From assembly GCA_903825315.1 (NCBI GenBank), contig CAIKAD010000002.1, positions 248,001 to 312,000 of the forward strand: a stretch of 64,000 nt of DNA. Direction: 5' to 3'. Within the stretch, counting starts at the first letter, position 1. Each line of letters starts with the position of its first letter. The notes below the pieces were generated by a model that was given only the letters and a program-made list of their open reading frames with translations, had not been told where the DNA came from and did no database searches. The stretch is from an uncultured Candidatus Peregrinibacteria bacterium (GTDB lineage Bacteria; Patescibacteriota; Gracilibacteria; Peribacterales; Peribacteraceae). Made by a program: the position numbers and the translations under genes. Of this stretch, positions 37,367-43,889 are shown in pieces.

Positions 37367-37414
37367 ATGAGACGTTCCGTTGTCGTCAGCGTCCTCCTTA
37401 CCGTCGCCCCCTAA
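37367..37414 (+). CDS. Short Val/Leu-rich uORF (15 codons), possible leader peptide
   Basis: ATG at 37367, 9 nt after the -10, opens MRRSVVVSVLLTVAP and then stops. Five Val and two Leu in 15 residues recall leader peptides of branched-chain operons, and an intrinsic terminator lies 29 nt past the stop. However, no branched-chain gene follows, so it could be a broken signal peptide or chance. Confidence 0.3.
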   Translation: MRRSVVVSVLLTVAP

Positions 37415-37442
37415 AGGCGCGAGGACTGCTGATATTTCTCAC

Positions 37443-37470
37443 CCTCGCGCAAGCGGGGTTTTTGTTTTTT
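37443..37470 (+). terminator. Intrinsic terminator after the uORF
   Basis: CCTCGC-GCAA-GCGGGG (GNRA-type loop) followed by TTTTTGTTTTTT. It may end the rmuC transcript or attenuate the next gene. Confidence 0.75.
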
Positions 37471-40472: not shown

Positions 40473-41633
40473 TCATCCCGCCACCTTCCGAATCTTCTCT
40501 CCCAGCTCTTCCATCCTCGCTAAGGGGATGCCGGCTACATTGATGCGTCCGTCGTCCGTGAGAAAGACCTTCTGCTCAGTTTGGAGACGATCGATCTCAG
40601 CCGGAGAAAGCGGCAGAAGGGCGAACATGCCCTGCCCGGAGACCGCTCCGCGCATCCGCTCCGGAAGGGCGGCAGAGAGCGCCTGGCGCTTGCGATGGAG
40701 CATGGAGCGGACTGCAGCCAAATCTTGGCGCCACGCATCGCTATAGGCCTCCTGCACGCGCGTCACGACGGTCTGGCCAAAGGTGGCTGCTGCAGAATGG
40801 ATACTGCGTGTGAGGAGTGCGTAGTGGCCTTCCACCTGTTTGCGGAACGCTTCGTCCGGAACAACGGCGCAGGCAAACCCCGTCCTCTCGCCGTACAAGG
40901 CATGGTTCTTGGAAGCCGACCATGCGACGAGAGTTGTAACGCCTTGCCGGGCGAAAAGACGGACCGGCTTGGCATCTTCCTCCGGTGTTCCCGCAAATCC
41001 CTGATACGCCAGGTCGAGAAGTGTGATTGCCTGCCGCTCTTTCATCGCCTGCGTCAGTTCCTCCCATTGGCCTTGGTCAAAGTCCAGCCCCACGGGATTA
41101 TGGCAACCGGCCTGCAGCAACACGACACAGGATCCTTTGGCCTGCCGCAGCGCCTGCGTAATGCCTTCGATCGTCGGCCTGCCGCCATCCAGATACGGCA
41201 CATCAACCCTCCTCATCTGCGCCCCGCCGATGAGACGCGGATAATTGGCCCACGCAGGCGTGGGCAGAATGAGCGTGATAGCGGAATCGAAAAGGAGCGC
41301 GAGGCGCAGGTTGAGCGCAACGGCCCCCGTGCCGCCCGTGGACGCGATTCCCGCTACGAGCGGGGCATCCTCTCCAAAGAGCAGTCGCGTGACCGCCGCG
41401 CGGTACGCCGGTAAGCCCGTGAGCGGCGGGTAGGAATAGGACCGAACAGCGAGCGTGGCGCCCACGTCCTGGAGTGCGCGCTGGACGCTGGGGAAGAGCG
41501 CAGGCTTTCCCTCTTCACTGAGATACACGCCCACTGTCCCATCAATTGCTTCCGGCCCTGCCGCGCGCGCCTTGGCTGCAACGGCAAAGATGGGGTCGGG
41601 CACGGCAATGGGAAGATTGGAGAAGGTGGGCAT
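40473..41633 (-). CDS. Aminotransferase class I (aspartate/aromatic type)
   Basis: The 386-residue protein is a fold-type I PLP enzyme of the AspC/TyrB subgroup. Key parts are GGTGAVALNLRLALLF, PTPAWANYPRLI, LLQAGCHNPVGLDF (the Asn-Pro-Val-Gly loop), LDLAYQGFAG (Asp and Tyr to PLP) and WSASKNHALYGERTG, with the PLP-binding Lys. It starts 19 nt after DAHP synthase and shares that gene's attenuated promoter, so it probably makes Phe and Tyr (and Asp) from their keto acids. A TAGACT 10 nt before the ATG might add an internal start. It ends before a repeat-rich region. Confidence 0.88.
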   Translation of the reverse strand: MPTFSNLPIAVPDPIFAVAAKARAAGPEAIDGTVGVYLSEEGKPALFPSVQRALQDVGATLAVRSYSYPPLTGLPAYRAAVTRLLFGEDAPLVAGIASTGGTGAVALNLRLALLFDSAITLILPTPAWANYPRLIGGAQMRRVDVPYLDGGRPTIEGITQALRQAKGSCVVLLQAGCHNPVGLDFDQGQWEELTQAMKERQAITLLDLAYQGFAGTPEEDAKPVRLFARQGVTTLVAWSASKNHALYGERTGFACAVVPDEAFRKQVEGHYALLTRSIHSAAATFGQTVVTRVQEAYSDAWRQDLAAVRSMLHRKRQALSAALPERMRGAVSGQGMFALLPLSPAEIDRLQTEQKVFLTDDGRINVAGIPLARMEELGEKIRKVAG

Positions 41634-41652: not shown

Positions 41653-42720
41653 TCAAACTCCAGAAGCCTTCCCCATGATGCGATCGACAGCGTCAGCCGT
41701 TTCGCGCAGGAGCCGTTCGGTATCCTCCCAGCCCAAGCACGGATCGGTTATCGAAAGCCCATCCATATCCATATCCGGTCCAATATTTTGCCTTCCGTTC
41801 TTGAGGAAGCTTTCCAACATGAAGCCCTTCACTACTTCGTAGCCATCATGTCCACGTTCCATAGCGCCCAGTACCGTATGCACCACATGAGCCTGCAGAA
41901 TGGGATCTTTCCCGTTTCCGTTCTGGCAATTGTCATGACTGGCATCGATGAGAACTGCCGGATTCCGTATCTCTCTCTTGGGTGACTTCAACTGTTTTGC
42001 AGCTAACGCGAGGGAGGCAGGATCGTAATTACTGCCCCCCTTGCCCCCTCGTAAAATGAGGTGTGCATACGGGTTTCCCTGCGTTTCCACCGTGTGCCTC
42101 CGCCAGGCGAACGTGTGCGGATGCTGGGCGCATTCCACTCCATCGACACCCACTGCGATATCCCCATCAACAGGATTCTTGATGCCCACGGGACAATCGT
42201 CATCTGTCTCAAAGAGTCCCGAAGCAATGAACCGGTGCTCCTGGTCGGCGGTGCTGCGCGCGCCAATGGCGATGTAGCTCAAACCATCGACAAAGTAGCC
42301 TTCGTTGTTCGTGAAGAGCATCTCATCGGCAAGAGGATGCTGCTGTCCCACTCTCCACATCATCTCCCTGCACTGCCAAATTCCCTTTTGGATATCCGCA
42401 GGCGCCAGGGGATCGGGCTGGGTCAGCGGACCGGGCCAGCCCAATGTCGTCCGTGGCTTCTGAATGTAGAGGCGCATGACAGGTAACACGCGCGTCCGGA
42501 TCTCTTCTGCCAACCTCGCTGCACGATCCGCGTACTTGTACACGGCTTCAGACGGCCAACTGGAGCATGGGCCGACAACCGCTATGAGACGGCGGTCTTC
42601 CCCGGTGAGGATGTTGCGGATCTCTTGCCTATGCTCTTCCACACGGTGATCCGCACCGATGGGAAACCGCTCTCGCACTTCTTCGGCACTGGGCAATTCT
42701 TGGATGATTCTGTAAGCCAT
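41653..42720 (-). CDS. aroG: 3-deoxy-D-arabino-heptulosonate 7-phosphate (DAHP) synthase, type I
   Basis: The ATG at 42720 (MAYRIIQELPSAEEV) gives 355 residues, like AroF/G/H of E. coli. Conserved parts include IAVVGPCSSWP, YIQKPRTTLGWPG (phosphoenolpyruvate contacts), the catalytic ILRGGKGGSNYD, and DASHDNCQNGNGKDP with the metal-binding His. It joins PEP and erythrose 4-phosphate, the first step to aromatic amino acids. Upstream lie a strong promoter, a 25-residue leader peptide full of Phe, Tyr and Trp, and a terminator: a transcription attenuator. The aminotransferase follows in the same unit. Confidence 0.95.
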   Translation of the reverse strand: MAYRIIQELPSAEEVRERFPIGADHRVEEHRQEIRNILTGEDRRLIAVVGPCSSWPSEAVYKYADRAARLAEEIRTRVLPVMRLYIQKPRTTLGWPGPLTQPDPLAPADIQKGIWQCREMMWRVGQQHPLADEMLFTNNEGYFVDGLSYIAIGARSTADQEHRFIASGLFETDDDCPVGIKNPVDGDIAVGVDGVECAQHPHTFAWRRHTVETQGNPYAHLILRGGKGGSNYDPASLALAAKQLKSPKREIRNPAVLIDASHDNCQNGNGKDPILQAHVVHTVLGAMERGHDGYEVVKGFMLESFLKNGRQNIGPDMDMDGLSITDPCLGWEDTERLLRETADAVDRIMGKASGV

Positions 42721-42745: not shown

Positions 42746-42778
42746 TACAAAAACACCTTCACCGCGGGGAGAAGGCTC
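42746..42778 (-). terminator. Attenuator terminator of the aro operon
   Basis: In the minus-strand RNA GCCTTC pairs with GAAGGT around TCCCCGCGGT and is followed by GTTTTTG. The 5' arm and loop (CCTTCTCCCCGCG) are also complementary to CGCGGGGAAGG inside the leader ORF (42838-42828), an 11-bp antiterminator with one bulge. Confidence 0.7.
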
Positions 42779-42807
42779 TGCTTGGGACGTCTAGGACGTT
42801 TCGATTG

Positions 42808-42885
42808 TTAGCTCAGACGCAACAGCACCTTCCCCGCGCTAAACGGATACCAATAAGCGCCGAAGAAAATACCGGAATGAGTCAT
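42808..42885 (-). CDS. Aromatic-rich leader peptide of the aro operon, 25 aa
   Basis: An ATG at 42885, 12 nt after the -10, opens 25 codons ending in TAA at 42808. Residues 6-15 read IFFGAYWYPF: two Phe, Tyr, Trp, Tyr and Phe in nine codons (7-15), all three end products of the pathway whose first enzyme follows. The codons just after them (16-20) carry the strand CGCGGGGAAGG that can pair with the terminator. A ribosome stalled at the aromatic codons would leave that strand free to form the antiterminator. No Shine-Dalgarno is seen. Confidence 0.8.
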   Translation of the reverse strand: MTHSGIFFGAYWYPFSAGKVLLRLS

Positions 42886-42897
42886 GAACGTGAGAGC

Positions 42898-42925
42898 ATT
42901 GTATTCAATGAGAAGAACCTGTCAA
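42898..42925 (-). promoter_or_regulatory. Promoter of the aro operon
   Basis: Minus-strand TTGACA (42925-42920), 16 nt, TACAAT (42903-42898); the RNA starts near 42891, a few nt before the leader peptide. Confidence 0.8.
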
Positions 42926-43058: not shown

Positions 43059-43889
43059 ATGACTCGGCAGGTTCAAGACACCCTCCGCGACGAAATCACG
43101 CGCTTCCTCAAGCACCACGGGCTGCGATTGAACACGGACCTAGGGCAGCACTTTCTGGTAGACGAGAGAGCCCTGAGCTTCATTGTGGAAGCGGCAAACA
43201 TCACGGAAGAAGACCGTATCGTGGAAATCGGACCGGGGATTGGCATCCTCACCCGGGAACTCGCGAAGCGCGCGAAGAAAGTGTCGACGGTAGAATTGGA
43301 TGATCGACTCATTCCGTTGCTCAAGGATTTTCTCTCGGGTGAAGACAAAAGTCTTCTTACTAAAGTAACTGTCACACGGGGTAATGCGCTGCACGTCCCG
43401 CTGCCCGACGAGCCCTACAAGGTCGTCGCCAACATTCCCTACCACATCACCTCTCCCCTCCTCCGACACGTGTTTTTGGAATCCAAGGTGATCCCTACGT
43501 CCATGACTCTCCTCATCCAGAAAGAAGTTGCGGAGAACATTTGCAACATCCGGAATGCCGGAATACTCACGATCCTCGTCGGCCTCTTTGGTACACCGCG
43601 TTATGTTCTCACCGTCGATAGTGACGCGTTCCTACCACCACCCAAGGTCGATTCCGCCGTCCTGCATATCGATTGTTTTGAACGGCCCCTCGCCGAGCCG
43701 AACGTGATCGAGAAGATCTTCTCCCTCACCAAAATCGGCTTCGGCCAAAAACGGAAGATGCTGAGGAATACGCTTGGGAAGCTCCCCGATGGAATGGCGT
43801 TGCTGCAAAAAGCAGATATTGATCCGGAAAGAAGGCCGCAGACACTTAGTGTTCAGGAGTGGATAACCGTTGCAAGGATCTTTCAATGA
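43059..43889 (+). CDS. rsmA: 16S rRNA (A1518/A1519) dimethyltransferase
   Basis: The 276-residue KsgA/RsmA protein carries the N-terminal LNTDLGQHFLVDERALSFI and the SAM-binding motif IVEIGPGIGILTRELA. The catalytic motif VVANIPYHITSPLL (NIPY) and the C-terminal domain LPPPKVDSAVLHI are also present. It dimethylates two adenines in the last hairpin of 16S rRNA at the end of 30S assembly. The ATG at 43059 fits the family. It is divergent from the aro operon with about 130 nt between promoters. A family A palindrome follows the stop. Confidence 0.96.
   Translation: MTRQVQDTLRDEITRFLKHHGLRLNTDLGQHFLVDERALSFIVEAANITEEDRIVEIGPGIGILTRELAKRAKKVSTVELDDRLIPLLKDFLSGEDKSLLTKVTVTRGNALHVPLPDEPYKVVANIPYHITSPLLRHVFLESKVIPTSMTLLIQKEVAENICNIRNAGILTILVGLFGTPRYVLTVDSDAFLPPPKVDSAVLHIDCFERPLAEPNVIEKIFSLTKIGFGQKRKMLRNTLGKLPDGMALLQKADIDPERRPQTLSVQEWITVARIFQ

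Follow-up and report, generated by a model that had tools for sequence, protein, structure and literature searches.

The window (the whole 64,000-nucleotide stretch of DNA analysed here) carries on its minus strand a gene for DAHP synthase followed by an aminotransferase gene. A short open reading frame rich in aromatic codons lies in front of both, between a promoter and a terminator hairpin. The features of the locus are:

42898..42925, minus strand: promoter TTGACA-16-TACAAT, formed by the -35 box TTGACA (42925-42920), a 16-nt spacer and the -10 box TACAAT (42903-42898).
42808..42885, minus strand: leader peptide ORF MTHSGIFFGAYWYPFSAGKVLLRLS, 25 codons plus TAA; aromatic-rich leaders lie at the equivalent place in 30 genomes.
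42856..42874, minus strand: segment 1, within the aromatic codons, where it forms a protector hairpin with segment 2 in the minimum-free-energy fold of the ribosome-free leader (z -2.5).
42822..42840, minus strand: segment 2 (AGCGCGGGGAAGGTGCTGT), the antiterminator 5' strand, beginning directly after codon F15.
42764..42780, minus strand: segment 3 (CAGAGCCTTCTCCCCGC), common to the antiterminator and the terminator, from folding and pairing tests.
42749..42776, minus strand: intrinsic terminator, hairpin GCCTTCTCCCCGCGGTGAAGGT (42776-42755) followed by GTTTTTG, with the T run at 42753-42749.
41653..42720, minus strand: DAHP synthase, class I alpha, 355 aa (PF00793; TIGR00034 above cut-off), start at 42720.
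40473..41633, minus strand: class I/II aminotransferase, nearest to the aromatic amino acid transaminase PRK09257, below its cut-off.
43059..43889, plus strand: RsmA-type rRNA adenine dimethyltransferase, divergent neighbour.

The promoter agrees with the consensus at 11 of 12 positions, a score equalled in none of 500 shuffles, and 12 nt separate the end of its -10 box from the leader ATG. Six aromatic residues (F7, F8, Y11, W12, Y13 and F15) fall within codons 7-15; six aromatics in 10 codons arose in only 0.5% of dinucleotide shuffles of the upstream region. This promoter and 25-codon ORF are as a sequence-only reading of the stretch had described them, and so is the hairpin with its T run between leader and DAHP synthase, to which RNAfold assigns -9.6 kcal/mol with an internal T-T mismatch. 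A generic terminator scan reported no terminator at the window leader; the hairpin is given by RNAfold. The RsmA-type neighbour is divergent and the leader has no gene before it on its own strand, so the hairpin does not belong to an upstream gene as its terminator. The aminotransferase is likely to share an operon with DAHP synthase. In relatives it is not adjacent and the synthase has no conserved neighbour, so that this link is specific to the window genome.

The same reading had proposed an 11-bp antiterminator pairing with the 5' arm and loop of the terminator. The pairing is present, joining CGCGGGGAAGG (42838-42828) to CCTTCTCCCCGCG in the terminator arm and loop, but as a core of about 11-12 bp with a small bulge and not as a perfect 11-mer. 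Taken over their full length, segments 2 and 3 (42840-42822 with 42780-42764) pair with -23.3 kcal/mol (p=0.003 against shuffles, which for the 2:3 pairing kept mononucleotide content only; those of the detector, promoter and aromatic-cluster tests preserved dinucleotides). We then folded the RNA downstream of a ribosome placed at each codon. In this model the window terminator has a probability of 0.00 when the ribosome stands at F7, F8, Y11, W12 or Y13, 0.98 at F15 and 0.96 at the stop codon, and 0.38 for the ribosome-free leader at equilibrium. From this dependence on ribosome position, the controlling stretch would hold Phe, Tyr and Trp codons alike, with F15 outside it. Of the six aromatic codons taken as sensors at the outset, five thus keep that role in the model and F15 loses it, being too close to the antiterminator strand.

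A structured 5' region with a terminator could also belong to a T-box, a riboswitch or another known structured RNA. This explanation is barely credible, as no Rfam family reached the gathering threshold in 20 loci and at E<=10 the window gave no more than a chance match; the Rfam Phe_leader and Trp_leader covariance models matched neither the window leader nor the 20 loci.

Sequence searches found a class I alpha DAHP synthase in 76 of 353 genomes of the class, which are assemblies of varying completeness; all results are computed from their DNA. Upstream DNA was taken for nearly all 76, and 70 upstream regions were scanned with a detector requiring an ATG ORF of 10-45 codons with five or more aromatics in a stretch of ten, then a hairpin and T run. 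It was positive in 28 of the 70 and in none of 29 trpE upstream regions used as control, which marks the arrangement as gene-specific. Two leaders were added by hand, one (L006) with a looser aromatic cluster and one (L037) where a chorismate mutase-like ORF stands between leader and DAHP synthase, giving 30 leaders in families f1, f6, f14, f15, f19 and f32. The other 40 upstream regions showed no leader by detector or by hand. In a phylum-wide search this type of synthase was rare outside the class, and neither of the two outside loci had a leader. Examples come from the genus of the window genome (MVSRSYAFGFWFFAFMAGKGRA), its family (MTSNMFFNGYWSFAFCARTVL) and genomes reading TGA as Gly (MRNLRQNYFFFFFGNKFFFKGCFFSI); further examples are MQNLFFYFWNFYFAPSRVRVRS and MYNTFFFWFFPYFYTK. 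All 30 have the terminator hairpin and T run, itself a detector criterion, and up to 9 aromatics occur per 10 codons.

Several of these leaders lie in AT-rich genomes where TTT, TTC and TAT are common, and one might suppose a constitutive or generally translation-coupled terminator beside which the aromatic codons are incidental to T-rich sequence. We regard this as most unlikely: dinucleotide shuffles of the same composition yield a mean of 0.5 detector matches per 70 regions, GC-balanced leaders of family f1 (48-52% GC) carry the cluster as well, TGG stands inside it in 14 of the 30 leaders, and trpE leaders carry Trp clusters instead.

Those trpE leaders form an observation of their own. 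Three of the 29 trpE upstream regions, all in family f28 (L093 in G275, L099 in G270, L112 in G259), contain Trp-only leaders (MNTYIVKNWWQLSTFRRRKS, MIRTNTTWWNWNQKSRF and MMMNIASKMWWWNEDLM, respectively) with terminators, none of which passes the aromatic detector.

In 29 of the 30 DAHP synthase leaders, a strand after the aromatic cluster pairs with the terminator 5' arm better than shuffles do (p<=0.04; L043 has no significant antiterminator), starting in nearly all of them about 0-11 nt past the last clustered aromatic codon (extremes -7 to 11). The stem sequences of different lineages are unrelated. When partners were swapped among 23 non-redundant lineages, the leaders' own partners totalled -365.5 kcal/mol and the best of 100,000 permutations -283.2 kcal/mol; since no permutation reaches the true total, antiterminator and terminator strands evolve together. 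Most relatives' leaders behave like that of the window when folded by ribosome position. For L031, L046, L066 and L070 the equilibrium fold favours the terminator at every, or nearly every, position, and these would therefore need co-transcriptional kinetics. With leader and terminator conserved in relatives and both stems co-varying, the attenuator interpretation put forward from the window sequence is strongly supported, by the very check that it had set for itself.

The same anatomy of leader peptide and terminator would be compatible with a nascent-peptide arrest sensor of the TnaC kind, in which a free aromatic metabolite stalls the ribosome and tRNA charging is not read. Across genomes, however, the leader peptides have only their aromatic content in common, and their sequence and the order and number of aromatics vary, which fits the reading of codons and not an arrest sequence. 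Moreover, the antiterminator strand sits just past the cluster, as attenuators that sense tRNA need, and we judge peptide arrest very unlikely. In our assessment it is highly probable that the locus is a ribosome-mediated transcription attenuator responding to the charging of tRNA-Phe, tRNA-Tyr and tRNA-Trp.

Mechanistically, the parts and their positions, their conservation, the co-varying stems and the predicted fold at each ribosome position, as they stand in the DNA, lead to the following proposal. Transcription would start a few nucleotides upstream of the leader ATG. A ribosome would load on the near-leaderless 5' end and translate the leader. With ample aromatic aminoacyl-tRNAs, the ribosome would reach the stop codon and cover segment 2, leaving segment 3 to pair with segment 4, and transcription would end before DAHP synthase. 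Under scarcity of Phe, Tyr or Trp, the ribosome would pause at codons 7-13 and segment 2 would pair with segment 3; in turn, DAHP synthase, and probably the aminotransferase too, would be transcribed.

The start assumed in this proposal follows from promoter spacing. In most leaders of families f1, f6 and f32, 8-12 nt separate the end of a TTGAC(A/T)/TAnnnT promoter from the leader ATG. The start is accordingly predicted to lie only a few nucleotides ahead of that codon, and the leader mRNA in Peregrinibacteria-type loci is thus probably leaderless or nearly so. A clear promoter was not seen in leaders of the code-25 (TGA-recoded) families nor in G183 and G184 of f15. Leaderless leader peptides have been reported for Sinorhizobium trpL (PMC7298713), and leaderless leaders in Streptomyces and Corynebacterium (PMC8079986, PMC5784534). 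There, likewise, the ORF begins at or near the transcription start; those leaders serve other amino acids and genes, and their start was measured, whereas ours is deduced from the promoter.

Elsewhere in the window organism, ORFs resembling ribosomal proteins L15, S20 and L11 and a TrxB-like ORF (L124, L127, L128 and L129) have a -10 match about 8-13 nt before the ATG, a spacing that suggests that leaderless mRNAs are common in it. In the pattern used to look for promoters across the genome, the spacer was one base longer than that of the leader, which left the leader itself unmatched; several putatively leaderless genes were among the matches.

Two genomes of a genus that reads TGA as Gly (g103) separate the switch from the gene behind it. 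Their attenuators (L066 in G154, L076 in G155), whose leader ORFs contain TGA codons, are 95% identical over 183 nt. The DAHP synthases behind them share 40% identity and fall into different motif groups. The gene seems to have been exchanged and the switch retained, an argument for the attenuator as a functional unit.

DAHP synthase had been taken for the regulated first enzyme of the aromatic pathway, and here the earlier interpretation needs correcting. The window genome, 99.64% complete, was searched for DHQ synthase, chorismate synthase, prephenate dehydratase and anthranilate synthase component I, and none was found; the search for EPSP synthase returned only a weak MurA-like match (90 bits against a cut-off of 287). 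With none of these downstream enzymes found, the switch is unlikely to govern the opening step of a functioning aromatic pathway in this organism. Both DHQ synthase and chorismate synthase are likewise missing from 16 of the 30 leader-bearing genomes. Single absences are soft in those of the 16 that are only about 80-90% complete, but several near-complete genomes show the pathway-less pattern firmly. The leader genomes of f6 have chorismate synthase and nearly all have DHQ synthase, and the rest of the pathway is present in f6 and most of f15.

These absences are what one would expect if attenuator and DAHP synthase were a vestige of a lost shikimate pathway, no longer of importance. This is an unlikely account: in pathway-less genomes the synthase is under purifying selection (dN about 0.27, dS saturated), its catalytic motifs are kept, and the stems of the attenuator co-vary. 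Within the tRNA-charging attenuator reading, we tentatively raise the possibility, short of an even chance, that aromatic starvation switches on a lone DAHP synthase in shikimate-less Peregrinibacteria and their TGA-recoded relatives, and that its product serves a purpose other than aromatic synthesis of their own, such as another C7 sugar route or an exchange with the partner cell on which they depend.

The E. coli leaders trpL and pheL each serve one amino acid, stand before terminal-branch enzymes and have a normal 5' UTR with a Shine-Dalgarno sequence. The class leaders resemble them in their alternative 1:2, 2:3 and 3:4 hairpins and in control codons placed before segment 2. For DAHP synthase itself, the aroR-aroF attenuator of Corynebacterium glutamicum is established (Neshat et al. 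2014, via PMC11802643 and PMC4046766). As described there, it too has an aromatic-rich leader peptide before DAHP synthase and ribosome-mediated transcription attenuation; its Phe-Tyr-Phe leader responds to Phe and not to Tyr. Compared with aroR as described in those papers, the class leaders hold up to 9 aromatics per 10 codons, with Trp in about half, they come from an unrelated lineage and seem unrelated in sequence, and many of their hosts are without the pathway.

A second case, uORFC-13-1, has been proposed from 24 sequences of Acholeplasma and environmental origin, not CPR, as a short ORF before aroF for which only Phe was noted (PMC8632094). It shares the Phe codon or codons, the -35 and -10 boxes, the terminator and the place upstream of aroF, and differs in the ribosome-binding site of the Acholeplasma motif (PMC8632094). 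The resemblance of aroR and uORFC-13-1 to the class leaders seems to be one of function only. According to a 2010 survey, leader peptide systems had until then been demonstrated in Proteobacteria and Actinobacteria alone, to which the survey added Firmicutes (PMC2965389); our literature search turned up no previous account of amino-acid attenuation in CPR/Patescibacteria. The novelty first claimed for a DAHP synthase attenuator accordingly narrows: the kind is already known from C. glutamicum and proposed in Acholeplasma, and what is new against the searched literature is the CPR lineage, the inclusion of Trp codons, the breadth and the pathway-less context.

If the proposal is true, the reduced genomes of the CPR, TGA=Gly lineages included, would possess a codon-based nutrient sensor that is class-wide and diverges rapidly. 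It would also provide a handle on the puzzle of shikimate-less genomes that retain the first enzyme under the control of aromatic amino-acid supply.

The combination of promoter, short ATG ORF and terminator occurs three times in the 64-kb window against 0.05 per dinucleotide shuffle, and its detector gave one weak match in 400 kb of stretches sampled from the same genome (L135-L154). The second module, also near-leaderless, consists of the ORF MRRSVVVSVLLTVAP with five Val (37367-37414, plus strand), a TTGACA-16-TACACT promoter, an antiterminator-like pairing of GCGCGAGG with CCTCGCGC, and a hairpin with T run (terminator about 37440-37465). It precedes an uncharacterised 130-aa ORF and then a UvrD/PcrA helicase, and is absent before UvrD in G002. 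The third has a Leu-rich ORF, MRHNGLLLALQLLLLREEGFRA (2307-2239, minus strand), a TTGACT-16-TAGACT promoter and a very stable terminator at about 2221-2185 (fold z -4.75). The ORF behind it is no leucine gene; it encodes an uncharacterised product of 157 aa that matches DUF4116 marginally.
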